Assembly: GCA_020723285.1 (NCBI GenBank)
Contig: DYJE01000004.1
Coordinates: 124,001 to 188,000, forward strand
Reading direction: 5' to 3'
Length of the DNA: 64,000 nt
DNA from: Desulforapulum autotrophicum
GTDB lineage: Bacteria; Desulfobacterota; Desulfobacteria; Desulfobacterales; Desulfolunaceae
Made by a program: the position numbers and the translations under genes. Under the pieces are notes generated by a model. It had not been told where the DNA came from and did not search any database. It saw only the letters and a program-made list of their open reading frames with translations. Positions 2,420 through 42,003 of this stretch are shown here, piece by piece. Positions within the stretch are counted from its first letter, which is position 1. Each line of letters opens with the position of its first letter.

Positions 2420-4108
2420 ATGTTCAAGGATTTGTCGTTAAAGAAGAAACTGCTGGGGGCTTTTTTAATTACAGCCATGATTACGGCTGTGGTGGGGGGG
2501 ATTGGGTTGATGCGGATCGCGGAGAGCAATCACGCCTTCAGCCATGTGGTGGCAGAGGATGTGGTGTTTCTGTCGGGGACTCTGAATCTGGAGCAAATGA
2601 CTCTTCAACACCGGCGGTATGAAAAGGATTTTTTTCTCAACATCGGCGATGCTGAAAAACAGAACGGCTATCTTGAGAAATTTCGGAAAGTCGCTGCCGA
2701 AACCCAGGAAAAAATAAAAACACTGTCCGCGACTGTGCCGGATGACGCGGATGGCCGAGAGGAAATCATTAAAAAACTGACAGAAGCCGGGGAACGTCAT
2801 GCAAAATACAATGAGGGATTTATCCGGATTTCAGGGGTTGTCGCAAACGATCCGGCCGCGACACCCCAGTCTGCGAACACGGCCATGGCTGAATTGAAAG
2901 AAGAGATTTACGCTTTCGAATCCCTGACAAGCCAGCTGGCGGATATGGCCCAGGGCTATATAGAAGGCGAATCGGCTCAGATGGTTGACGAAGGCCGGAT
3001 GTCGCAAAAGATGATCGTGGTTTTTCTTTTAGTGGGTGTGGCGGTGAACGTCGCCTTCGGCATGGTGATCGCGGGTATGATCACAAAGCCCGTGCGGATG
3101 GCCGCCGAGTTCGCGGAAACCATGGCCAGCGGGGATTTCAGGAAGGATATTTACAAAACCGGAAACGATGAGGTGGGTGTCATGCTGGGTGCTTTAGGAA
3201 CCATGTCATCCCAGTTGCGGTCTATGGTGAGTGACATTGTCGGGTATGTGGACACGCTGGCCAGCGCGTCCACGGAGCTTGCCGCCATTTCGAACCAGCT
3301 TCGCAGCGGGGCCGATCAGACCGTTCATCAGGCCCATGCGGTCACAGCTTCGGCGGAGCAGGTCAGCACACATATGACCTCGGTGTCCGCCGCATCCGAA
3401 CAGGCCAGCACCAACGTCAACATGGTGGCCACCGCAGCCGAGGAAATGACGTCCACGATTTCTGAAATCGCGAAAAACACCGAAACGGCCAGGGTTATCA
3501 CCGGTGATGCCGTGACCCAGGCCGGAGCCGCCTCGGATCAGGTGGACAAACTCGGCGAATCCGCATCCCAGATCAGCAAGGTGGTGGAAGCCATCACCGA
3601 GATTTCGGAACAGGTGAACTTGCTGGCGCTGAACGCCACCATCGAGGCTGCCCGGGCCGGAGAAGCGGGCAAGGGATTTGCGGTGGTGGCCAATGAAATC
3701 AAGGAACTGGCCCGTCAGACCGCCACGGCGGCCATCAGCATTCGAGAACAGATCGGGGCTGTTCAGGAATCTTCGAAATCCACGGTGGAGGGTATCGGGG
3801 CCATTGAATCGGTGGTGGGAAAGGTGCACGGCATTGTCGAGAGCATTGCTGCGGCCATCGAGGAGCAGACTGCCGTGACCCGTGAAATCGTCAGCAATGT
3901 GTCCCAGGCGTCACTGGGAATCGGCGAGGTGAGTTCCAACATTGCCCACAGCAGCGACGAAGTGGGGCGCATTTCACACGAGATCGGACAGGTGAACAGG
4001 AGCACGGAAAACATTTCACAGGCCAGTGTCCAGGTGAACGCCAGCGCCATGGAACTGAGTCGTGTTTCGGAACAGATCAAACAGCTCGTTGGCCGGTTCC
4101 GTGTCTGA
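2420..4108 (+). CDS. Methyl-accepting chemotaxis protein
   Basis: A 562-residue membrane chemoreceptor. TM1 is at about 10-31, a helical ligand-binding region of four-helix-bundle type at 32-190, TM2 at about 197-220 ([18 protein letters not shown]), HAMP at about 220-275, and the cytoplasmic signalling hairpin to the C terminus with the conserved tip [20 protein letters not shown] near residue 407. The ATG at 2420 is preferred over the in-frame ATG at 2393 because GGAGAGG lies just before it and the protein then begins [15 protein letters not shown], a normal MCP start. It signals through CheW/CheA; no cheA lies in this window. The C terminus lacks an obvious CheR-binding pentapeptide. The upstream gap holds a sigma-54 promoter and structured RNA that could affect expression. 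Confidence 0.95.
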
Positions 4109-4120
4109 AACCGGTCTTTT
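4093..4120 (+). terminator. Possible intrinsic terminator overlapping the MCP stop
   Basis: CCGGTT (4093-4098) pairs with AACCGG (4109-4114), followed by TCTTTT. The left arm lies in the last MCP codons and the T-rich tract overlaps the end of the convergent hydrolase gene, which leaves only 11 bases between the two genes. Confidence 0.4.
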
Positions 4121-4746
4121 CAGTCCCTGTCAAGAATTCTGACGTCGATGCGGCCTTCAAGGCCTTTCTTGAAGGCCCTCGCGTCTTTCACATCTCCAAT
4201 CACTTCCCCGTAGTGCATGGGCACGGCGATTTCAGGCTTGATGATCAGGGCCGCTTCCACCGCCTCAGCGGGTGTCATCACAAAAGTGCCGGAAACAGGC
4301 AGAAGGGCGATGTGGGTCTTGATGTACGACATTTCGGGAATGAGGTCCGAATCCCCGGTGTGATAGATCCGGATGCCGTCGATTTCCATGATGAACCCCA
4401 GCCAGTTGTTGGATTTGGGATGAAAGGATTTGTTGATGTTGTATGCCGGGACCGTATGGATCCGGATTCCCCGGACGGTGAGGTCTTCGCCGGGCTGGAC
4501 AATGCGGACATCTCCCTGGAGTTTTTTCGCGCTTGTTTTTTCCGTGACGATGACGGTGTCTTTTTTCTGAATCCGCTTCACATCTTCCGGCGAACAGTGA
4601 TCGTAGTGGCTGTGGGAAATGAGAATGAGATCCGCTGCGGGGCCTTCGTCAATTTCGTAGGGGTCGATGTATATGACGGTGGTCCCTGAAATCCTGAATC
4701 CCGAATGACCCAGCCACTCGATGTTGTCCATCAGATCTTCAATCAT
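4120..4746 (-). CDS. Metal-dependent hydrolase, UlaG-like MBL fold
   Basis: A 208-residue protein of the metallo-beta-lactamase superfamily, UlaG/UPF0173 type. It begins with the family's typical IEWLGHSGFRI strand and carries the metal-binding HSHYDH signature. Further expected ligands are the GDSD segment near residue 130 and a late His in PMHYGE. The size fits the family (about 210-230). The start at 4746 is preceded by GGAG at good spacing. Members are soluble and hydrolyse ester or phosphodiester bonds; the substrate here cannot be told. It is convergent with the MCP, and its 5' end is close to the end of the radical SAM gene on the same strand (27 bases), so it is probably the last gene of that minus-strand run. 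Confidence 0.85.
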   Translation of the reverse strand: MIEDLMDNIEWLGHSGFRISGTTVIYIDPYEIDEGPAADLILISHSHYDHCSPEDVKRIQKKDTVIVTEKTSAKKLQGDVRIVQPGEDLTVRGIRIHTVPAYNINKSFHPKSNNWLGFIMEIDGIRIYHTGDSDLIPEMSYIKTHIALLPVSGTFVMTPAEAVEAALIIKPEIAVPMHYGEVIGDVKDARAFKKGLEGRIDVRILDRD

Positions 4747-4773
4747 GCGTTTCTCCTTGAAATGTGAATCCCG

Positions 4774-6183
4774 TCATATCCCGGCCCAGAACCTTGCGAA
4801 CAGGGCGATTTTTTGTGACCACCGTTTTTTTTCAAAGGGTATCATACGGATTATCCGGCCGGGCCGCAAATAAAATTTCCCGTAGGCCTTTCGAACCCAG
4901 GCTTTTAGAACCCGCTCGTCATGGCAGGTGTGGAAACAGGACGGAAGACGGTCCGGCGGGTTTCTGGAAACATCGATGTTCGCCCGGACTGCATAAGGTG
5001 TTCCGGGGTAGGGGATCAGCATGTGGAACGCGGCGTAATCGGGGTCGAGATCAAGGGCTGCGGCAAGGGTTTTGTCCCGGTCCTTTTCCGTTTCACCGGG
5101 AAAACCCGAGTTGAAAAACAGCGCAGTCCGGATGCCTTCGGCACGTGCACCGGAAACAGCCCTCCGGCATGCATCGAGACCGATGTTTTTTCCTGTGCTT
5201 TCAAGGATCTCCTGTGAACCGGATTCCACTCCCATGTGAATCAGTGTGCATCCGGCCTTTTTCATAAGGGCCAGGGTTTCCCGGTCGAGATCCGTGGCCC
5301 GTGTCTGGCAGCACCAGGTGACGTTCAGGTTTCGTGCGGCCATGAGACGGCAGAAGGTTACAAGAAAATTCCGGTCCAGGCCGAACTCCAGATCCATGAA
5401 ATACACCGAGCGGATGTTGAAACGGTTCCGGGCTTCGGCCACTTCAGCCACCAGTTTTTCCGGGGATTTCCGGCGGCAGCCAGCGGGAAACATGGCCTTG
5501 AAGCAGAAGGCGCAGTGGAAGGGGCAGCCCCTTGAACTTTCCATCAGGGTGAAGGGGTGATCCATGAACGGGTAATGATAGGCGGCCATGGGCAGGAGGT
5601 GAAAGGCCGGTTTGGATATGTCTGAAAGAGGCGGCGCTTTTCCGGCCGGGTTTTTCGTGATGACACCGTTGGAGAGATACGCGAGCCCCGGTATATCCGT
5701 AATGTGGTCCGTCCAGGGCGTCCGGGAGAGCAGTTCTGTGACCGTCATTTCCGGCTCGCCCAGCACGGCGGCCCGGGCTCCGGTTTGTCTTAAAATAATG
5801 TCGGGTCTTGCAGTGACGTGGGGCCCCAGCAGAATGGTTTTTTCAGAGGGGAAACACCGGACCGTATGGAAAAAAAGCGGAATGTGGAGCGACGGGCACT
5901 GCCAGCGGTCATAGGCCTCCGATGTCACACAGACGGCGTCGAAATCCCGGCCGAGCTGGCGGAGCCTGAATTCGGAGAGCCGTTCAATCCGGTTGTCCAC
6001 GATGCGGACATCGATGCCCTTTTCGAGAAGAAGACCGGCGATATTGGCCAGGTCCAGGGGTTGCCATATCCGCCTGAACAGCGGCTGGCCACCTTTTGTT
6101 CTTCCTGACGTTTCAGGAAGAACAAGGAGGACTCGTTTGACGCCGTGCCTGATGACATTCATCTCCGCTGTCCGATTCATCAT
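4774..6183 (-). CDS. B12-binding-domain radical SAM protein
   Basis: A 469-residue protein with an N-terminal Rossmann-like cobalamin-binding-type region (GLLLEKGIDVRIVDN, then LLGPHVTARPD) followed by a radical SAM core with the cluster motif CPFHCAFC in SSRGCPFHCAFCF. The C-terminal part (MGVESGSQEILESTGKNIG, then NSGFPGETEKDRDKT) is typical of the Elp3/MiaB-like SAM barrel of this class. The start at 6183 follows the carbonic anhydrase stop by seven bases; an alternative ATG at 6162 has a GGAG closer by. The N-terminal region lacks a clear DxHxxG cobalamin motif, so B12 binding is uncertain. The family includes methyltransferases of lipid and cofactor pathways. The substrate is unknown. 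It is probably co-transcribed with the carbonic anhydrase. Confidence 0.8.
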   Translation of the reverse strand: MMNRTAEMNVIRHGVKRVLLVLPETSGRTKGGQPLFRRIWQPLDLANIAGLLLEKGIDVRIVDNRIERLSEFRLRQLGRDFDAVCVTSEAYDRWQCPSLHIPLFFHTVRCFPSEKTILLGPHVTARPDIILRQTGARAAVLGEPEMTVTELLSRTPWTDHITDIPGLAYLSNGVITKNPAGKAPPLSDISKPAFHLLPMAAYHYPFMDHPFTLMESSRGCPFHCAFCFKAMFPAGCRRKSPEKLVAEVAEARNRFNIRSVYFMDLEFGLDRNFLVTFCRLMAARNLNVTWCCQTRATDLDRETLALMKKAGCTLIHMGVESGSQEILESTGKNIGLDACRRAVSGARAEGIRTALFFNSGFPGETEKDRDKTLAAALDLDPDYAAFHMLIPYPGTPYAVRANIDVSRNPPDRLPSCFHTCHDERVLKAWVRKAYGKFYLRPGRIIRMIPFEKKRWSQKIALFARFWAGI

Positions 6184-6190
6184 GTCTGGA

Positions 6191-6886
6191 TCAGGGCATG
6201 AGGTCGACACGGCCGTCATCCAGGTCGTAGCGCGCACCGACAATCATCAGCTGCCCCTTGTCCACCAGGGGTTTCAGAAACGGGTCCGCTGTTTTCAGCA
6301 TCTGCACGGTCATGGCCACATTGGCTCTCATGCCCACTTCCGGCAGGTCGGCGGTCCGGCCCCTCACCGAGTCGATGGCGGGTTTGATGGCCTTGACAAT
6401 GCAGCCGATATGGCCGGGAGCTTCCCCGCCCTGAACCGTGGCCTTGACCGCCCCGCAGCTTTCATGGCCGAGAACCATGATGTAGCGTGTGCCCAGGTGT
6501 TCAATGGCGTATTCGATACTTCCCAGGGCCGCGTCGTCGACGATGTTGCCTGCAAGGCGGATCACGAAAAGATCGCCGATGCCCTGATCGAAGATGATTT
6601 CAGGGGGGACGCGGGAGTCCGAGCAGCAGATCACCACGGCAAAGGGATGCTGACCGGCCGCCACATCCATGCGTCGTGTGCTGTCCTGGTTTTTATGGGT
6701 GGCTTTGGCGCTGACATAGCGCTTGTTGCCTTCGAACAGCATTTTGTGGGCTTCCTTGCCGCTGACCGCTGGCGACGCCCCGGAGCTGTGATCCGAACTT
6801 CCGGCTCCGTGGTCCGAAGCCATGGTGAAAGATGCAGACAATACCAAAGTGATCAGGGCGATGCATGGTATGGCGGACCTTCGCAT
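6191..6886 (-). CDS. Exported beta-class carbonic anhydrase
   Basis: A 231-residue enzyme for reversible CO2 hydration. The zinc site of beta-class enzymes is complete: Cys88, Asp90 and Arg92 in CCSDSR, then His141 and Cys144 in HESCGA. The N terminus is a clear signal peptide (MRRSAIPCIALITLVLSASF, likely cleavage near residue 24), so the enzyme should act in the periplasm; most beta-class enzymes are cytoplasmic. A His/Ser-rich linker follows the signal. The start is supported by AAGGAGG seven bases upstream. A periplasmic enzyme could help supply or dispose of bicarbonate at the membrane in an anaerobe oxidising organic acids; this is inference. The 165-base gap upstream (6887-7051) shows no other gene. 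Confidence 0.92.
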   Translation of the reverse strand: MRRSAIPCIALITLVLSASFTMASDHGAGSSDHSSGASPAVSGKEAHKMLFEGNKRYVSAKATHKNQDSTRRMDVAAGQHPFAVVICCSDSRVPPEIIFDQGIGDLFVIRLAGNIVDDAALGSIEYAIEHLGTRYIMVLGHESCGAVKATVQGGEAPGHIGCIVKAIKPAIDSVRGRTADLPEVGMRANVAMTVQMLKTADPFLKPLVDKGQLMIVGARYDLDDGRVDLMP

Positions 6887-7051
6887 GGTAATCCTCCTTG
6901 TTCTGATAAGTTTCAGGTTGATGGAACATATGCCTGACGGGCGATCACGGGACTGGTTCTCTCTGGTATCGGGTTTATTGCTGCCCGGCTTGAATAGAAT
7001 TTATGATTCTTCTTTTATAAAGAACGGGCGGCTGTGTCAACAGGCAGATGG

Positions 7052-7489
7052 TCAACGTCCGCTTGAACATGACCCGTAAAGGCTGTGGTAAAACGAGGCG
7101 TGGCGTTCTTCATCGCCCTGGATTTTTCTGAGGACATCCCGGTAGGGGTTCGTCCGTTCTGAATGGAGTTCTTTTTTAAGCAGGGAAAGGGCCAAGGATT
7201 CCACCACGGAAAGGGTTTTCAGCTTCCAGCGAAGCGGTACGGCAAACTGGATGAAGCCCATGGTTTTCCCCAGAAATGTCCATGGGCCGGTGATGAGTTC
7301 ACCGCCGTAGGTCTCATGGTACGCTTTGCCGAACAACACCCCGTGTTTCAGCTCATCCCTTGAAAAGCGTCCGAGGGTTTTGGCGATGTCTTCCTTTTTA
7401 CTGTATCGTTTCGACAGGCTCAGGTAAAAACCGGAAGCGACGTGCTCGATCCGGCAGGCCCAGGTGAGTTGAAGTTTGACGATATTCAT
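7052..7489 (-). CDS. Ferritin-like-fold protein (rubrerythrin-related)
   Basis: A 145-residue helical protein with the pattern of di-iron ferritin-like proteins: Glu/His pairs in CRIEHVASGFY, FSRDELKHG and GDEERHASFYH. These could supply the Glu and ExxH carboxylate-histidine ligands of a diiron centre. No rubredoxin domain is fused. The start at 7489 (MNIVKLQLTW) has GAGGAG upstream and is preferred to the in-frame start at 7528. Members are linked to peroxide reduction, iron handling or diiron oxidation; the exact role is unknown. It is a single gene between the carbonic anhydrase and corA, all on the minus strand. Confidence 0.65.
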   Translation of the reverse strand: MNIVKLQLTWACRIEHVASGFYLSLSKRYSKKEDIAKTLGRFSRDELKHGVLFGKAYHETYGGELITGPWTFLGKTMGFIQFAVPLRWKLKTLSVVESLALSLLKKELHSERTNPYRDVLRKIQGDEERHASFYHSLYGSCSSGR

Positions 7490-7588
7490 GATTTGCTCCT
7501 CTTTGATGGTTTGTGTTTGCCTCCACACATATCAAAGGGTTGTGAACCGGATATGACATCAGATGTAAAAAGTGTGACGCACTGCCCT

Positions 7589-8653
7589 TCAAAACCATTT
7601 CTTTCGCTTGAAATAAATCAGCATGGACACGGCGATGAGGAAAAGCACGGCGAGAAAGATGAAATAACTGTATTGGTAGTGAAGTTCGGGCAGATGGTCG
7701 AAGTTGGTGCCGTACACCCCGGCGATGAAGGTGAGGGGAATGAAGATGGCCGCGAACACGGTGAGATGCTTCATGACATCGTTCATTTTGTTGGTCATGA
7801 TGGAGTTGTAGAGGTTCATCATGTCGTTCAGCATGTCCCTGTAGGTGTCGATGGCTTCTGCGGCCTGGGTGAACAGATCGGCAATGTCTTTGAGGAATGG
7901 AATCGTGTTCTCTCGGATCAGATCGTTGTCGATGCGGAGAAGCTGGACCACCATGTCCCGGGCCGGGCGGATGCATTTGCGGAGGTAGTTCATTTCCCGT
8001 TTGAAGGCGTTGATTTTTTCCATGGCCGCCTGGCTGGGGTTTGCGAGGATCTCGCTTTCCAGATCCTCGATGTCTTCCCCCAGCCGTTCGATGATTTCGA
8101 TGTAGCTGTCCACCACCGTATCGAGGAGGGAATAGGCCAGGTAGTCAGGGCCTGCGGTCCGAACCCGTCCTTTCTGCTTACGGAGGCGCTCCCGCACCGG
8201 GTCGAACACATCGCCGGGTTCTTCCTGAAACGTGAGGAGAAGGTTTTCGAACAGAACGATGCTGAGTTGTTCCGACACGGTTCTTTTTTCCTGCTCATCG
8301 AAACGGAGCATGCGCAGAACGAAAAAGAGACAATTGTCGAATTCCTCCAGTTTGGGGCGCTGGCCTGTGTTCATGATGTCTTCGAGCAGAAGGGGGTGGA
8401 GGTTGAAATGTTTTCCGGCGTTGCGGATCACCTCCGAACAGTGAAGGCCGTCCACGTTGAGCCATGCAAAAAAGTCGTCTCTGACGAACCGGGCACTGTC
8501 GGAAATTTCATCGAGGCTCTGCTCGTCAAAGGAATCGGCGTTGTACTGGATCATGCTGACGATGCAGTCTTCGATTTTCTTTTTTCCAATGAACACAAGG
8601 GAGCCGGGGTGCATGCCTTTTCTGGCGTCGGTGTTTTTCAGGAATCGGGCCAT
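7589..8653 (-). CDS. corA: CorA-family magnesium/cobalt transporter
   Basis: A 354-residue inner-membrane divalent cation channel. The long N-terminal cytoplasmic domain (about 1-290, alpha/beta then long helices) is followed by two C-terminal membrane helices. The family's pore signature appears as YGTNF at the end of TM1 in place of the usual YGMNF, followed by DHLPEL and the second helix (YSYFIFLAVLFLIAVSMLI) and a basic tail KRKKWF. Thr for Met in the GMN motif is seen in some CorA relatives and may change ion preference, including towards zinc as in ZntB-like members. The start at 8653 has GAGAGGA upstream; 26 upstream in-frame codons are probably not translated. Confidence 0.9.
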   Translation of the reverse strand: MARFLKNTDARKGMHPGSLVFIGKKKIEDCIVSMIQYNADSFDEQSLDEISDSARFVRDDFFAWLNVDGLHCSEVIRNAGKHFNLHPLLLEDIMNTGQRPKLEEFDNCLFFVLRMLRFDEQEKRTVSEQLSIVLFENLLLTFQEEPGDVFDPVRERLRKQKGRVRTAGPDYLAYSLLDTVVDSYIEIIERLGEDIEDLESEILANPSQAAMEKINAFKREMNYLRKCIRPARDMVVQLLRIDNDLIRENTIPFLKDIADLFTQAAEAIDTYRDMLNDMMNLYNSIMTNKMNDVMKHLTVFAAIFIPLTFIAGVYGTNFDHLPELHYQYSYFIFLAVLFLIAVSMLIYFKRKKWF

Positions 8654-34427: not shown

Positions 34428-35237
34428 ATGATAAAGACCATGGAGACTCTGATCGTAAACCCGGTAAGAAACACAGGGCGGAACACCCTGGCCCTGATCA
34501 CAACCTTGGGGCGGGCCGGTGTTTTTTTTGTCCGAAGTGTTTTTTTTGTTTTCTACCTTCCGTTTCAATGGCGGCGGACTCTGGAGCAGGTTTATTTTAT
34601 CGGGGCCAAATCGGTGACTGTCATTATCCTCACCGGTGGATTTACCGGAATGGTTCTGGGCCTTCAGGGGTATTACACCCTTTCCAAATTCGGCTCCGAA
34701 GGTCTTTTAGGATCGGCGGTGGCCCTGACGCTGATCAAGGAACTCGGGCCTGTTCTGACGGCCATCATGGTGATCGCCAGGGCCGGGTCGGCCATGGCCG
34801 CCGAAATCGGCATCATGCGGATTTCCGAACAGATCGACGCCTTGAAAACCATGAACATCAATCCGATCCGGTTTCTTGTGAGCTCCCGGCTTCTGGCAGG
34901 CGTTCTCAGTTTCCCTTTGCTGACGGCATTGTTCGACACAGTGGGCATTCTGGGCGGCTACCTCACAGGTTCCAAGCTTCTGGGTATCAATCCGGGCATC
35001 TATTTTTACAGGGTGGAGACCAGCGTTCTCATGAGCGATGTCCGGGAAGGGTTCATCAAATCCGTGGTGTTCGCCCTGACCGTCATCACGGTTTCCTGTT
35101 TCCACGGGTACTTCACCCATCTGAGAAAAGAAGGTTTCGGGGCCAAGGGTGTGAGCCTTTCCACCACCACAGCGGTGGTCCAGTCCTGCGTGATCGTTCT
35201 TATCGTGGATTACGTGATAACGTCTTTTCTTTTGTAG
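34428..35237 (+). CDS. mlaE: MlaE-type ABC permease
   Basis: A 269-residue inner-membrane permease of the retrograde phospholipid transport system. The family signature KELGPVLTAIMVIARAGSAM followed by ISEQIDALKTM is intact, with five to six membrane helices. It begins the block mlaEFDCA. Two close starts (34428 ATG, 34440 ATG); no strong ribosome site. A 114-base gap separates it from comEC. Confidence 0.93.
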   Translation: MIKTMETLIVNPVRNTGRNTLALITTLGRAGVFFVRSVFFVFYLPFQWRRTLEQVYFIGAKSVTVIILTGGFTGMVLGLQGYYTLSKFGSEGLLGSAVALTLIKELGPVLTAIMVIARAGSAMAAEIGIMRISEQIDALKTMNINPIRFLVSSRLLAGVLSFPLLTALFDTVGILGGYLTGSKLLGINPGIYFYRVETSVLMSDVREGFIKSVVFALTVITVSCFHGYFTHLRKEGFGAKGVSLSTTTAVVQSCVIVLIVDYVITSFLL

Positions 35238-35243
35238 GAGAGT

Positions 35244-35999
35244 ATGGATCAGCCCCTGATACAGTTCGACAGCGTTCATAAAAGCTACGGCGACAACAAG
35301 GTTCTCCGGGGCGTGGATCTTGCCATTTACAAAGGCGAGATCACCACCATCATCGGAAAAAGCGGTGAAGGCAAGAGCGTCCTTCTGAAACACATCATCG
35401 GCCTTGTCAAACCGGATTCCGGCAACATTTTGTTTGAAGGACAGACCCTTTTCGCACGGAAAAAAAGTGAACGGGACGCTTTGAGAAAAAAATTCAGCTA
35501 TATGTTTCAGGATTCGGCCCTGTTCGATTCCATGACGGTTTTCGACAACATCGCCCTTCCCTTGCGGGAGGGGACGAAGATGAAAAGCGGAGAGATCGGG
35601 GATTGTGTCCGTAAGCGGCTTGAGCAGCTGGACATCGGGGGCATAGAAGCCAAATACCCCGGCCAGCTGTCCGGCGGTATGAAAAAAAGGGTGGCTCTGG
35701 CCAGGGCCCTGGTCACGGACCCTGAAATCGTGCTGTTCGACGAGCCCACCACCGGCCTTGATCCCATTCGGAAGCAGTCGGTTCACACCATGATTTCCGA
35801 TTATCAGAAACGGTTCGGGTTCACGGGGATTATGGTCAGCCATGAAATTCCCGATGTTTTCTCCATCAGTCAGCGTGTGGCCATGCTGCATGAGGGGAAA
35901 ATCCTGTTTCAGGGCAAGGCCGAGGACCTTCTGATTGACGAAGACCCGGTGATCAAAGGATTTATCCAGCCCCAGGGACTGGATCTCAATGATTTTTAA
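35244..35999 (+). CDS. mlaF: MlaF-type ABC ATPase
   Basis: A 251-residue ATPase. Walker A is GKSGEGKS, the signature LSGGMKKRVALARAL and Walker B IVLFDEPTTGLDP; the ABC domain is complete. It energises the MlaE permease for phospholipid traffic between outer and inner membranes. It lies six bases after mlaE with a usable GGAG site. Canonical MlaB (STAS domain) is not encoded beside it. Confidence 0.94.
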   Translation: MDQPLIQFDSVHKSYGDNKVLRGVDLAIYKGEITTIIGKSGEGKSVLLKHIIGLVKPDSGNILFEGQTLFARKKSERDALRKKFSYMFQDSALFDSMTVFDNIALPLREGTKMKSGEIGDCVRKRLEQLDIGGIEAKYPGQLSGGMKKRVALARALVTDPEIVLFDEPTTGLDPIRKQSVHTMISDYQKRFGFTGIMVSHEIPDVFSISQRVAMLHEGKILFQGKAEDLLIDEDPVIKGFIQPQGLDLNDF

Positions 36000-36056
36000 C
36001 ACATGTGCGGTGAGCCATCCCTTTGCGGGATGAAACGATAGGGAATCGGAGGAACC

Positions 36057-36518
36057 ATGAAAAAATCGTCCCTTGAACTGACGGTGGGCATTTTTGTCAT
36101 CATCGGTCTTGTCTGTGTGGGATATCTGACGGTGAAACTGGGCAAGATGGAGCTTTTAGGCGATCATTACTACAGTCTGAACGCCAAGTTCAATTCGGCC
36201 ACGGGCCTGAAACCGGGGTCCAACGTGGAAATCGCCGGGGTGAAAGTGGGGCAGGTGGAATCCATCGGGCTTGATCCCGTGATGAAAATCGCCATGGTCA
36301 AAATGAAGATCGAAAAAGGCATCGAGCTTGAAGATGACGCCATTGCGTCGGTGAAGACGTCAGGACTCATCGGCGACAAGTTCATCATGATCACGCCGGG
36401 AGGTTCCATGGAAACTCTTTCTCCCGGCGGAATGATCACGGAGACCGAACCGGCCCTGGATATCGAGGATCTGGTGAGCAAGTACGTGTTCGGCGACAAA
36501 AAAGATAAAAAAGAGTAA
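36057..36518 (+). CDS. mlaD: MlaD-type MCE domain protein
   Basis: A 153-residue periplasmic MCE protein anchored by one N-terminal helix (ELTVGIFVIIGLVCVGYLTV). The MCE domain begins LNAKFNSATGLKPGSNVEIAGV and ends in a short acidic/basic tail. Length fits MlaD, which forms a hexameric lipid-binding ring. GGAGG lies before the start. Part of mlaEFDCA. Confidence 0.94.
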   Translation: MKKSSLELTVGIFVIIGLVCVGYLTVKLGKMELLGDHYYSLNAKFNSATGLKPGSNVEIAGVKVGQVESIGLDPVMKIAMVKMKIEKGIELEDDAIASVKTSGLIGDKFIMITPGGSMETLSPGGMITETEPALDIEDLVSKYVFGDKKDKKE

Positions 36519-36549
36519 CGTTGAAGAACGTTAACCATCGAGGTGCAAT

Positions 36550-37206
36550 GTGAAGAAAACAGCATGTTTACTGGGCCTGGTCCTAATTATGACTTTTTCA
36601 GCGGTTCCGGCCTTCTCCGGCGACGAGGCGGATGTGGACACCATGATCAAGACCTCCATGAACGAGGTTCTTGCGATCGCCAAAAAACCGGGCATGGGCA
36701 ATGACGATAAACGGAAAGAACTGTGGAAGATCGTCATGCGGACCTTTGATTTCGCCAAGATCACCGAATTCACGCTGGGGCAGTTCAGCTACACCTCCAG
36801 CGCCGCCCTGGGCGAATACGAGGACCGGCGATTTACCAAAGAGGAGCAGGACGAGTTCAAGGACGTGTTCACACGGCATCTGGGCAACACTTATCTGGAC
36901 CGTATGGATTTCAAGAACGTGGATGTGATCATCGACCTGAAACCGGCTGAAATCCTGGAAACCAAAAAAGGGATTAAAAGAGCCCAGGTGAAAACCATGA
37001 TCAACAAAAAAACACCCATCGACTACATTCTTCTGAACGAAGGCTCAGGCTGGAAGATCTACGACGTGAAGGTGGAGGGCCGGAGCCTTGTTTCGGCGTT
37101 CCGCACGGAGTACAAGGCCATTCTGCTTAAAAACAAACCCAAAGTCCTGACCCAGATGTTGAAAGACAAGATTAAACAGCATGATGCCGCTAAGAAAAAA
37201 AGCTGA
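36550..37206 (+). CDS. mlaC: MlaC-type periplasmic phospholipid-binding protein
   Basis: A 218-residue exported protein: signal peptide MKKTACLLGLVLIMTFSAVP (cleavage after AFS), then an MlaC (Ttg2D) fold with FAKITEFTLGQFSY and KNVDVIIDLKPAEILETKKG. The start is GTG at 36550; the ATG one base earlier is out of frame and is followed at once by a stop. It ferries phospholipid between MlaA and MlaD. Its last codons overlap mlaA by 26 bases. Confidence 0.9.
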   Translation: MKKTACLLGLVLIMTFSAVPAFSGDEADVDTMIKTSMNEVLAIAKKPGMGNDDKRKELWKIVMRTFDFAKITEFTLGQFSYTSSAALGEYEDRRFTKEEQDEFKDVFTRHLGNTYLDRMDFKNVDVIIDLKPAEILETKKGIKRAQVKTMINKKTPIDYILLNEGSGWKIYDVKVEGRSLVSAFRTEYKAILLKNKPKVLTQMLKDKIKQHDAAKKKS

Positions 37207-38194
37207 GCGTTTCGCCTTTTCGGCGTTGATTCTACTTGCGTTTGTGACGGGCTGCACCCATGGCGGGACTGTTCATGCCGACAAGGAACAGCTTCGCACA
37301 ACAGCCATGGACTCTGTCAGCGATCCTGGGACACCTGCCGACAAAGCCGTTGCGGTGAGTGTCGCAACAGGGAAAGAGGGACCTGACAGTCCGGCCGGAA
37401 CTAAGATTCCGGACGTTAAGCCTGAAAAAAAACCCTCGGAAACGGGCGAAGACCCTGTGGTATCGGCGTTTCCCAAGGTGACGGAAGAACCCATTCCACC
37501 CGCTGAAACCGTCGGCGGCGATGATGTGGATGAATTTTTCGATGAGGCCGCCGATGAAGCACCCGCAGCTAAGGTGGCGGTTGTGGAGACCCTGGTTCCC
37601 GACCCCTTCATCACCTTTAACCGGGCCATGTTCACTGTGAACGACCGTTTGTATTTCTGGTGTTTGAAGCCCCTGGCCAGCGGGTATAAAAAAGTGACGC
37701 CCACCATCGTTCGCAAAGGGGTCAGAAATTTTTTTTTCAACCTGGGAACCCCTGGCCGGCTGGTGAACAGCCTCCTTCAGGGGAAATACAAAGGCGCGGG
37801 CTCGGAACTGGGCCGATTTCTTGTAAACACCACCGTGGGTGTGGGCGGGGTATGGGATCCTGCCGAACGCTTTTTCGGCTGGAAGCCTTCCGAAGAGGAT
37901 CTGGGGCAGACTCTGGGGGCCTGGAATGTGGAAAACGGCGTCTATATTGTCTGGCCATTCCTGGGACCCTCCACGCTGAGGGATACGGTGGGTAAAGCCG
38001 GCGATCTGTTCTTGAATCCCTTGTATTACCTGAGTCCCAATGAACTGGCCTGGGGTCTTTCCGGCACGGAGGTCATCAACGACACCTCGTTTTACATCGG
38101 GGACTACGAAACCGTAAAATCAACCTACATGGACCCCTATGTGATGCTCCGCGACCTTTACATCACGCACCGGAAAAAGAAGATCGCCGATTAG
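37181..38194 (+). CDS. mlaA: MlaA (VacJ) outer-membrane lipoprotein
   Basis: A 337-residue lipoprotein with lipobox in LLAFVTGC (Cys25). An acidic and proline-rich linker of about 100 residues (26-125) precedes the VacJ domain (about 126-330: PDPFITFNRAMF, NFFFNLGTPGRLVNSLLQGK, FLVNTTVGVGGVWDPAERFF, YIVWPFLGPSTLRDTVG). Typical MlaA is about 250 residues, so the linker is an unusual lengthening. It removes misplaced phospholipid from the outer leaflet and hands it to MlaC. The 26-base overlap with mlaC suggests coupled translation. Confidence 0.93.
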   Translation: MMPLRKKAERFAFSALILLAFVTGCTHGGTVHADKEQLRTTAMDSVSDPGTPADKAVAVSVATGKEGPDSPAGTKIPDVKPEKKPSETGEDPVVSAFPKVTEEPIPPAETVGGDDVDEFFDEAADEAPAAKVAVVETLVPDPFITFNRAMFTVNDRLYFWCLKPLASGYKKVTPTIVRKGVRNFFFNLGTPGRLVNSLLQGKYKGAGSELGRFLVNTTVGVGGVWDPAERFFGWKPSEEDLGQTLGAWNVENGVYIVWPFLGPSTLRDTVGKAGDLFLNPLYYLSPNELAWGLSGTEVINDTSFYIGDYETVKSTYMDPYVMLRDLYITHRKKKIAD

Positions 38195-39123: not shown

Positions 39124-42003
39124 ATGACTCAAAACAGCATCGAAGATTACTTAAGGGCACTCAAACGTTACGAGGTCCTTGCCCCCTACCTGGTCTGCCA
39201 TAAAGAACTGCCGGGAAAAGACGCGGAGTTCGGCACCCCTTCACCTCCGTTGACCGAAGCGGTCCGCCGCGTTCTTGATACCATGGGAATCACGGAACTT
39301 TACAAACATCAGGCCACGGCCATCGATCATGCCCGGCAGGGACGGCATACTGTGGTGGCCACACCCACGGCCAGCGGAAAGACGCTGATCTACAACATCC
39401 CGGTGATGGAAAAAATCCTTGAAGATCAAGAAAGCCGGGCGTTGTATCTTTTTCCATTGAAAGCCCTGGCCCAGGATCAACTGAAAAGTCTTCGCGACAT
39501 GTTCGGCCGTCTTGATCAGACGATAAAACCCACCGCCGAAATTTACGACGGCGACACACCGTCCCACACCCGGACGAAAATCCGGAAAAAACCGCCCCAT
39601 GTGCTGCTGAGCAACCCGGAGATGCTTCACCTGGCCATTCTTCCCTTTCATGACCGGTGGGCCGAATTCATCGGCAAGCTGAAATATGTCATTGTGGATG
39701 AAGTGCATACCCTTCGCGGCATCATGGGGTCCCACATGGCCTGGGTGTTCCGGCGGCTGTTGCGGATTTGCGCCGTTTACGGTTCAAACCCTGTGTTTAT
39801 CTTCTGCTCCGCCACCATCGGCAATCCCGGCCAGCTTGCCGAGGCACTGACAGGGCTGACGGTGGAGCGGGTCAAGGAAAGCACGGCGGCACGTTCGGCC
39901 AAACATTTTCTCATGCTGAACACGCCGGACGGCGCGGCGCAATCGGCCATCGCCCTCCTGCATGCGGCGTTGTCCAGGGACCTTAGAACCATCGTGTACA
40001 GCCAGTCCCGCAAGATGACCGAGCTCATCGCCCTGTGGGCCTCACGCCGCGCCGGGCGTTTCAAGGACAGGATCAGCGCCTACCGCGCGGGTTTTCTGCC
40101 CGAGGAACGACGGGACATCGAGGCCAGGCTGGCCTCGGGTGAACTTCTGGCTGTGGTCACCACCAGCGCCCTGGAACTGGGTATCGACATCGGCAGTCTT
40201 GATCTCTGCATACTCGTGGGCTATCCCGGCACCATGATGGCCACATGGCAGCGGGCCGGAAGGGTGGGACGTTCAGGCCGGGATTCGGCGGTGATTTTCA
40301 TCGCCCACGAAGACGCCCTGGACCAGTACATGATGAACCATCCGGAGGAATTTTTTTCCATGGAGCCGGAACGGGCCGTGGTGAACCCCATGAATCCGGT
40401 GATCATGCGGCGGCATCTGGTGTGTGCGGCGGCGGACCTGCCCATCGACGTCAATGAACCCTGGGCGCGGCAGCCGGGCATGGAAGCGGTGATCGCCGAC
40501 CTTGAAAGTCTCGGCGGCCTTCTCCGAAGCGAGGATGGCGACCTTCTTTTTTCGCCGGGAAAGTACCCCCAGCGCCAGGTGGCCCTTCGGGGCACCGGAG
40601 AGTCCATGGATATCGTGAACCGCGACACCATGGACATCATCGGCAACCTGGACCGTTTCAGGGCGTTTCATGAAGCTTATCCCGGCGCGGTTTACATCCA
40701 CCGGGGCGACCATTACGTCATCACGGATCTGGACCTGACGAAAAACACGGCGTCGGCGGTGAAGCAGCAGGTCCATTATTTCACCCGGGCGCGCTCGTCC
40801 AAAACCACGGAAATCCTTGATATTCTGGACCGAAAGAGCCTCTGGTCCACCGGTATGGCCCTCTGCCGCCTCAAGGTTACGGAAATCGTCACCGGTTATG
40901 AGAAAAAGCTGATCAAAGGCCAGCGTCTTCTGGGTGTTTTCCCCCTTGACCTGCCGCCCATGGTGTTTGAAACCGAAGGGATCATGATCGTCATTCCTGA
41001 ACGTGTGAGGGTTTACTGTGAGCGGAACCAGCTTCATTTCATGGGGGGGATCCACGCCATGGAACATGCGGTGATCGGCATTCTGCCCCTTTTGGTGATG
41101 ACTGACCGGAACGATTTGGGGGGCATCTCCATTCCCTGGCATCCCCAGGCGGAGACGGCGGCGGTGTTCGTTTACGACGGTTTCCCCGGCGGGGTGGGGC
41201 TATCCCGTCAGGCTTTCGAACGGGCGGAACAGCTGGCGGAAAAAACCCTTGAAACCATTCTGTCCTGCCCCTGTGACACCGGATGCCCCGCCTGCGTCCA
41301 TTCGCCGAAATGCGGATCGGGAAACCGGCCCATCGACAAAGCGGCGGCCCTTGAAATTCTGGGCCAATTGAAATCAGGGTCCGGGTTAGAATGTTCGGAC
41401 ATCACGGTTTCCGGCATATTGAAAGCGGACAGGGTTTCGGAAGAGATGGCGGAATATGGTGAAAAAAAGACCATCCGCTACGGTGTACTCGACCTTGAAA
41501 CACGGAGGTCCGCCGAAGAGGTGGGCGGCTGGGGGCATGCCTCCCGCATGGGAGTCAGTTGCGTGGTGGTTTACGATTCAGATACGGACACGTATGAAGA
41601 GTATCTGGGCGAAGACATTCACCGGCTGACGGAACACCTGAAGCAGCTGGATCTGGTGGTGGGTTTCAATATCCTGCGTTTTGACTACGCCGTGCTCAAG
41701 GGTTACAGCACCTTTGATTTTCATCGTCTGCCCACGCTGGATATTCTGACGGAGGTCCACAACCGTCTGGGATACCGCCTGTCTCTGGACCATCTCGGCG
41801 AACAGACCCTGGGGGAGAAGAAAAGCGCCGACGGCCTTCTGGCGTTGAAATGGTGGAGAGAAGGAAAGATTCGTGAGATCATTGACTACTGCCGTGACGA
41901 TGTGCGACTCACCCGGGATCTTTACCGCTTCGGGCGTGAGAACGGTTATCTGCTGTTCAGGAACAAGGCGGGTCAGAAGGTTCGTGTCGCCGCCGGCTGG
42001 TGA
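39124..42003 (+). CDS. MrfA-type DEXH helicase fused to MrfB-type DEDDy exonuclease
   Basis: A 959-residue fusion. Helicase part (about 55-745): Walker A TPTASGKT (about 80-88), motif II Asp192-Glu-Val-His195, motif III SAT in CSATIGN, motif VI QRAGRVGRSGR (about 376-386), and a C-terminal four-Cys module (CPCDTGCPACVHSPKCG, about 714-731). This is the MrfA/YprA arrangement. From about 785 to the end is a DnaQ-like exonuclease: Asp790 and Glu792 (DLE), Asp854 (FNILRFD), Tyr922 and Asp926 (YCRDD), matching the DEDDy set of MrfB/YprB. In Bacillus MrfA and MrfB are separate proteins that act in mitomycin C damage repair. Here they are joined in one polypeptide. The start at 39124 is preferred; the GTG at 39088 is possible. 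Confidence 0.85.
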   Translation: MTQNSIEDYLRALKRYEVLAPYLVCHKELPGKDAEFGTPSPPLTEAVRRVLDTMGITELYKHQATAIDHARQGRHTVVATPTASGKTLIYNIPVMEKILEDQESRALYLFPLKALAQDQLKSLRDMFGRLDQTIKPTAEIYDGDTPSHTRTKIRKKPPHVLLSNPEMLHLAILPFHDRWAEFIGKLKYVIVDEVHTLRGIMGSHMAWVFRRLLRICAVYGSNPVFIFCSATIGNPGQLAEALTGLTVERVKESTAARSAKHFLMLNTPDGAAQSAIALLHAALSRDLRTIVYSQSRKMTELIALWASRRAGRFKDRISAYRAGFLPEERRDIEARLASGELLAVVTTSALELGIDIGSLDLCILVGYPGTMMATWQRAGRVGRSGRDSAVIFIAHEDALDQYMMNHPEEFFSMEPERAVVNPMNPVIMRRHLVCAAADLPIDVNEPWARQPGMEAVIADLESLGGLLRSEDGDLLFSPGKYPQRQVALRGTGESMDIVNRDTMDIIGNLDRFRAFHEAYPGAVYIHRGDHYVITDLDLTKNTASAVKQQVHYFTRARSSKTTEILDILDRKSLWSTGMALCRLKVTEIVTGYEKKLIKGQRLLGVFPLDLPPMVFETEGIMIVIPERVRVYCERNQLHFMGGIHAMEHAVIGILPLLVMTDRNDLGGISIPWHPQAETAAVFVYDGFPGGVGLSRQAFERAEQLAEKTLETILSCPCDTGCPACVHSPKCGSGNRPIDKAAALEILGQLKSGSGLECSDITVSGILKADRVSEEMAEYGEKKTIRYGVLDLETRRSAEEVGGWGHASRMGVSCVVVYDSDTDTYEEYLGEDIHRLTEHLKQLDLVVGFNILRFDYAVLKGYSTFDFHRLPTLDILTEVHNRLGYRLSLDHLGEQTLGEKKSADGLLALKWWREGKIREIIDYCRDDVRLTRDLYRFGRENGYLLFRNKAGQKVRVAAGW

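Follow-up and report, generated by a model that had tools for sequence, protein, structure and literature searches.

A probable single-chain DNA-repair helicase-exonuclease of Desulfobacterota, MrfAB-like in working but with a nuclease from a family other than MrfB

The gene at 39124-42003 on the plus strand of the window (the whole 64,000-nucleotide stretch of Desulforapulum autotrophicum DNA that was analysed) encodes a polypeptide in which a helicase of the MrfA/YprA family is joined to a predicted DEDDy 3'-5' exonuclease. We regard this protein as probably being a clade-specific single-chain DNA-repair helicase-exonuclease that is MrfAB-like in its working and was built independently of MrfAB. 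This assignment draws on computed properties, namely the domain architecture, the conservation of both active sites, the fold, the separate family of the nuclease, and the fact that no MrfB was recognised in the tested genomes that carry the fusion. The single-chain helicase and DEDDy exonuclease described by a first-pass annotation of this DNA was confirmed as one intact frame ending in a TGA codon (42001-42003), with the same fusion in relatives, and comprises the following features.

39124..42003, plus strand: helicase-exonuclease fusion coding sequence, 959 aa plus stop; one frame, relatives built alike
39304..39822, plus strand: RecA1 (DEAD) domain, residues 61-233 (Pfam PF00270, 108.7 bits)
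39967..40278, plus strand: RecA2 (Helicase_C), residues 282-385 (Pfam PF00271, 55.5 bits)
40381..40596, plus strand: winged-helix domain (WHD_HRQ1), residues 420-491 (Pfam PF22982, 31.3 bits)
41062..41298, plus strand: MZB (MrfA Zn-binding, DUF1998) domain, residues 647-725 (Pfam PF09369, 81.2 bits; full-length structural match to MrfA 6znp)
41266..41313, plus strand: five-Cys module C715, C717, C721, C724, C730 (CxCxxxCxxCxxxPKCGSGN), invariant across fused proteins
41359..41472, plus strand: variable interdomain linker, residues 746-783, hypervariable in length and sequence (pLDDT under 50 at 765-781)
41473..42000, plus strand: predicted DEDDy 3'-5' exonuclease domain, residues 784-959, from motifs, fold and profile kin
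41491..41499, plus strand: Exo I motif, D790 and E792, invariant in 30/30
41683..41685, plus strand: Exo II, D854 (GFNxxxFD), invariant in 30/30
41887..41901, plus strand: Exo III, Y922-x3-D926 (YCxxD), invariant in 30/30

The helicase half carries the complete set of motifs initially reported for it, T80-K86 (I), D192-E193-V194-H195 (II), S229-A230-T231 (III) and Q376-R383 (VI), and their core residues are invariant in an alignment of 24 proteins. The SF2 RecA1-RecA2 core, the MZB domain and the full-length MrfA-like fold that characterise the MrfA/YprA (DUF1998/MZB) helicase family are all found in the fusion. An AlphaFold2 model of the whole protein, built from an alignment of 24 relatives, had a mean pLDDT of 85 and a pTM of 0.79, and contained one clearly disordered stretch, residues 765-781, which separates the helicase half from the nuclease half; across the aligned fused proteins, the shortest linkers have about 25 residues and the longest well over 100. 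When compared with Bacillus subtilis MrfA (YprA; 6znp/6znq/6zns), the helicase half matched 6znp with a Z-score of 39.5 and an rmsd of 6.3 over 724 aligned residues at 36% identity, and the two share the full-length fold, the SF2 motifs, the WHD and the MZB domain. Unlike the fusion, B. subtilis MrfA is a separate protein partnered by MrfB and has a four-Cys module. The module first read in the fusion as four-Cys and MrfA-type has five cysteines; the four-Cys form (CPCxxGCPSCVGP) terminates the helicases of MrfAB operons.

A helicase tree of the fused proteins, B. subtilis MrfA (its sequence transcribed from a pairwise alignment) and actinobacterial and haloarchaeal relatives, the root of which is uncertain, placed B. 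subtilis MrfA within the MrfAB-operon clade with 100/100 support and the fused helicases outside it. Lying outside that clade and bearing five rather than four cysteines, the fusion does not belong to MrfA proper. The fused helicases formed one clade (83/75; support 92 in a larger tree), so that support for a single clade is moderate. Its sister group consisted of unfused helicases from the phylum, with both together at 100/100; no nuclease genes were found beside the sister unfused helicases. The five-Cys ending is common to the fused clade, these sister helicases and actinobacterial SftH-type/TIGR03817 proteins, the last of which end in CxCxxxCxxCxxSPKCGNGN..DK and are 37% identical to the fusion over 742 residues but are without an exonuclease domain. 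The fusion scored 708 bits against TIGR03817, below the curated cut-off of 874.1 bits. Two five-Cys MrfA-family helicases, L148 (G080) and L149 (G323), each have an MrfB-type nuclease gene directly before them and are intermediate between the MrfAB operons and the fused clade; therefore, pairing with MrfB may be older than the fusion and may later have been replaced, although the root of the tree is too uncertain for a firmer statement.

Turning to the nuclease half, D790, E792, D854, Y922 and D926 were listed as intact by the first-pass annotation and proved unchanged in 30/30 aligned fused proteins, with no loss in close homologues. Modelled alone, this half reached a pLDDT of 94 and adopted a DnaQ-like exonuclease fold, which together with the D-x-E, D and Y-x3-D motifs identifies a DEDDy (DnaQ-like) domain; Pfam RNase_H_2 also matches the C-terminus at residues 812-934. 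The best structural matches were proofreading exonucleases of family-B polymerases (5mdn: Z 15.4, rmsd 3.5, 167 aligned), T7 polymerase appeared among the Foldseek matches, and MrfB was absent from the best 50. Because MrfB likewise resembles family-B proofreading domains (PMC11194089), the structure of the nuclease by itself cannot settle MrfB orthology.

Sequence profiles separate the two nucleases more clearly. MrfB proteins of the phylum are mostly 415-540 aa long and score 115-141 bits against PF13482, versus 29 bits for the fused domain. They are DEDDh enzymes, in which the fourth position ahead of the final Asp is occupied by His in 20/20 readable sequences, as in B. subtilis MrfB (H258/D262; PMC11194089), whereas the fused domain has Tyr at this position (Tyr922) in 30/30. 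A search with an MrfB profile did not match the fused nuclease, and a profile of the fused domain scored phylum MrfB at 14.5 bits or less among the MrfB proteins listed and gave no match to the MrfB core 8UN9 up to E 10, while a phylum MrfB matched 8UN9 at 1e-32. Profile-profile comparison of the fused domain with MrfB (hhalign) gave a probability of 60 and an E-value of 8.5e-5, a score consistent with shared membership in the DnaQ/RNase H superfamily only, where very deep common ancestry with MrfB is possible. B. subtilis MrfB (YprB; 8UN9) resembles the fused nuclease in being a DEDD 3'-5' exonuclease that partners an MrfA-type helicase, but it has a Leu113 wedge and a TPR region (PMC11194089); the fused protein has Ser796 at the corresponding spacing and ends 33 residues after D926, so that the C-terminal TPR region is absent.

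The closest kin of the fused nuclease lie elsewhere. They are stand-alone DEDDy exonucleases of ~180-200 aa, present on viral contigs and in a bacterial island. Those on viral contigs (L219-L226), about 190-200 aa long, scored 89-113 bits with the fused-domain profile, and profile-profile comparison with these viral DEDDy exonucleases gave a probability of 99.9 and an E-value of 8e-33. Stand-alone DEDDy exonucleases are 31-46% identical to the fused domain and share its motifs, with no helicase joined to them; the two viral examples checked had no Pfam match, and a weaker relationship extends to phage family-A polymerases (about 30% identity; phrog_403 at 9e-12). A chromosomal stand-alone homologue, 46% identical to the fused domain, lies between the genes for RmuC and for a NERD/UvrD-like helicase (L262, G158:C12, 3217-8350); a WYL regulator follows downstream, and this neighbourhood is possibly a repair or defence island. 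A close stand-alone copy of 219 aa occurs in G282 (L192, G282:C22, 4613-5269), a genome that is 99% complete, and the 9.8 kb read around this copy contains no helicase. Based on these viral and chromosomal kin, the fused domain is, as judged from sequence, a member of a small free-standing DEDDy family found in phages and bacterial islands. The nuclease is perhaps phage-derived, transfer between phage and host being possible in either direction.

These comparisons bear on whether the protein is a true MrfA-MrfB fusion, in which the two genes of an ancestral mrfAB operon became joined and the MrfB part then diverged rapidly, losing its TPR region and exchanging His for Tyr. Both nucleases match PF13482 with the same FN-x-FD spacing, the five-Cys helicases of G080 and G323 adjoin an MrfB-type gene, and a 2025 preprint has already stated that YprA helicases occur fused to MrfB/YprB homologues (PMC12458937). 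Nevertheless, we consider this origin improbable, as the fused nuclease is far closer to the stand-alone DEDDy proteins than to MrfB, MrfB in turn shows more similarity to other PF13482 proteins than to the fused nuclease, the Tyr and His residues divide the two sets completely, and the MrfB-type gene precedes the helicase in G080 and G323 while the nuclease is C-terminal in the fusion. Orthology of the nuclease to MrfB was rejected on account of the profiles, the catalytic residue and the nearest kin. The name MrfA-MrfB fusion, under which the gene was first described, is therefore apt in that an MrfA-family helicase and an exonuclease share one chain, but is valid as an analogy only. Similarly, the proposed Gram-negative version of the MrfAB pathway does exist in the phylum, but as ordinary two-gene operons and not as the fusion: the helicases of these pairs are 35-39% identical to the fusion, and an MrfB-type PF13482 match was present in 24/24 tested genomes with an MrfA-clade helicase, adjacent to it in most.

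A PF13482 search of 51 genomes carrying the fusion gave a recognisable DEDDh MrfB in 0/51 among the strong matches read; a few weak matches of 21-29 bits also occurred. By score, the strong matches read belong to another, Tyr-bearing PF13482 group, bar one PDDEXK-RNase_H_2 protein in G031, where a 501-aa protein combines a PD-(D/E)XK nuclease with an RNase_H_2 domain (L216, G031:C30, 3029-4531). From this distribution, the fusion has probably replaced MrfAB in the genomes that carry it.

For MrfA and MrfB, 3'-5' translocation, 3'-5' degradation and a role in repairing damage by mitomycin C are established (PMC12458937, PMC11194089), with species specificity reported for the alleles (PMC12458937), and the MrfAB authors modelled a free 3' end near the MrfB active site, proposing that the helicase opens the DNA and the nuclease removes the strand. 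We infer the activities of the fusion, their polarity and coupling, the type of lesion and the replacement of MrfAB. The MrfA/YprA-family motor (RecA1-RecA2-WHD-OB-MZB) would load onto single-stranded DNA and move 3'-5', opening the duplex near a lesion, and the DEDDy domain on its flexible tether would degrade the exposed 3'-ended strand by two-metal-ion catalysis with Y922/D926 chemistry. By analogy with MrfAB, the fusion may act in mitomycin C repair, or its substrate could be an adduct other than that of mitomycin C. The functional link between helicase and exonuclease that was first suggested remains likely because the fusion is conserved, although the partner is not MrfB. The helicase of the fusion belongs to a five-Cys sister clade of MrfA, and the nuclease to the separate DEDDy family. 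We give even chances to the fuller scenario in which a Desulfobacterota clade swapped MrfAB for an independent, convergent one-chain machine, made of an SftH/MrfA-like helicase and a captured stand-alone, perhaps phage-derived DEDDy exonuclease.

The fused homologues that the first-pass annotation proposed to search for proved numerous, in single frames and from independent assemblies. In 24 genomes, the source genome included, the match spans the whole protein with helicase and nuclease sharing one frame, and the same holds in further genomes where a longer linker splits the match. The matches listed from a scan of public contigs were Desulfobacterales-type loci, and among them both domains were present in 78/83 matching ORFs (80 loci), the few exceptions being single-domain pieces; plasmid matches among those listed were helicases alone, without the nuclease. 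In an even sample of the phylum Desulfobacterota, the nuclease was found in 84/297 genomes and 56/199 genera, with 79/85 of its matches lying in frames at least 940 aa long. The fusion is therefore stable and old, and is one real protein common to a large group of sulfate-reducer-type bacteria. One fused protein is broken into two overlapping frames near residues 239-268 (G034:C4:180110-182913), by either a sequencing error or a real break.

The same survey informs the alternative that the protein serves in anti-phage defence rather than repair, as do the Druantia/ARMADA YprA helicases with C-terminal nucleases. Many YprA-family helicases of this build are defensive (PMC12458937), and the G158 stand-alone homologue sits beside RmuC, the NERD/UvrD-like helicase and the WYL regulator. 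However, the distribution of the fusion is broad and vertical-looking, its neighbours are lineage-specific, with no conserved neighbourhood indicating a pathway and no conserved defence partner, PADLOC matches fall in the helicase core, and the protein is MrfA-like along its full length, leaving no space for insertions of the kind described for defensive branches. A defensive role is thus unlikely, and we retain the repair assignment. A sequencing or assembly artefact merging two genes by a frameshift has practically no chance of being correct and is ruled out: no observation spoke for it, and homologues carry the same joined frame in assemblies made independently, among them those of cultured strains and genomes in a single contig.

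The nearest functional parallel is Staphylococcus aureus DinG (PMC12345164), which likewise combines a 3'-5' exonuclease and an SF2 helicase in one chain and is needed for crosslink repair, and which its authors liken to a natural MrfA-MrfB fusion; it differs in having a DinG-type 5'-3' helicase and an N-terminal DEDDh exonuclease. A widespread fusion with a nuclease of a separate family appears to be new in the literature searched. If correct, our reading would mean that MrfA-type helicases became coupled to 3'-5' exonucleases on more than one occasion in evolution, and such a repeated origin would be stronger evidence of a functional link than the fusion of a known pair. The fusion also offers a single polypeptide of fixed stoichiometry for assaying the proposed MrfAB model, in which the helicase opens the DNA and the exonuclease removes the lesion strand, and such proteins should not be annotated as MrfAB fusions. 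Elsewhere in the source genome (L218, G000:C92:27000-37000, 3453-8584), a DISARM-like pair of DrmA (655 bits) and DrmB (201 bits) adjoins a UvrD-like helicase, and the DrmB frame contains the second MZB match of the genome. Upstream of the fusion, at 34428-38194 of the window, the translations read as an Mla-type lipid transport cluster (permease, ATPase, MlaD, MlaC, MlaA).
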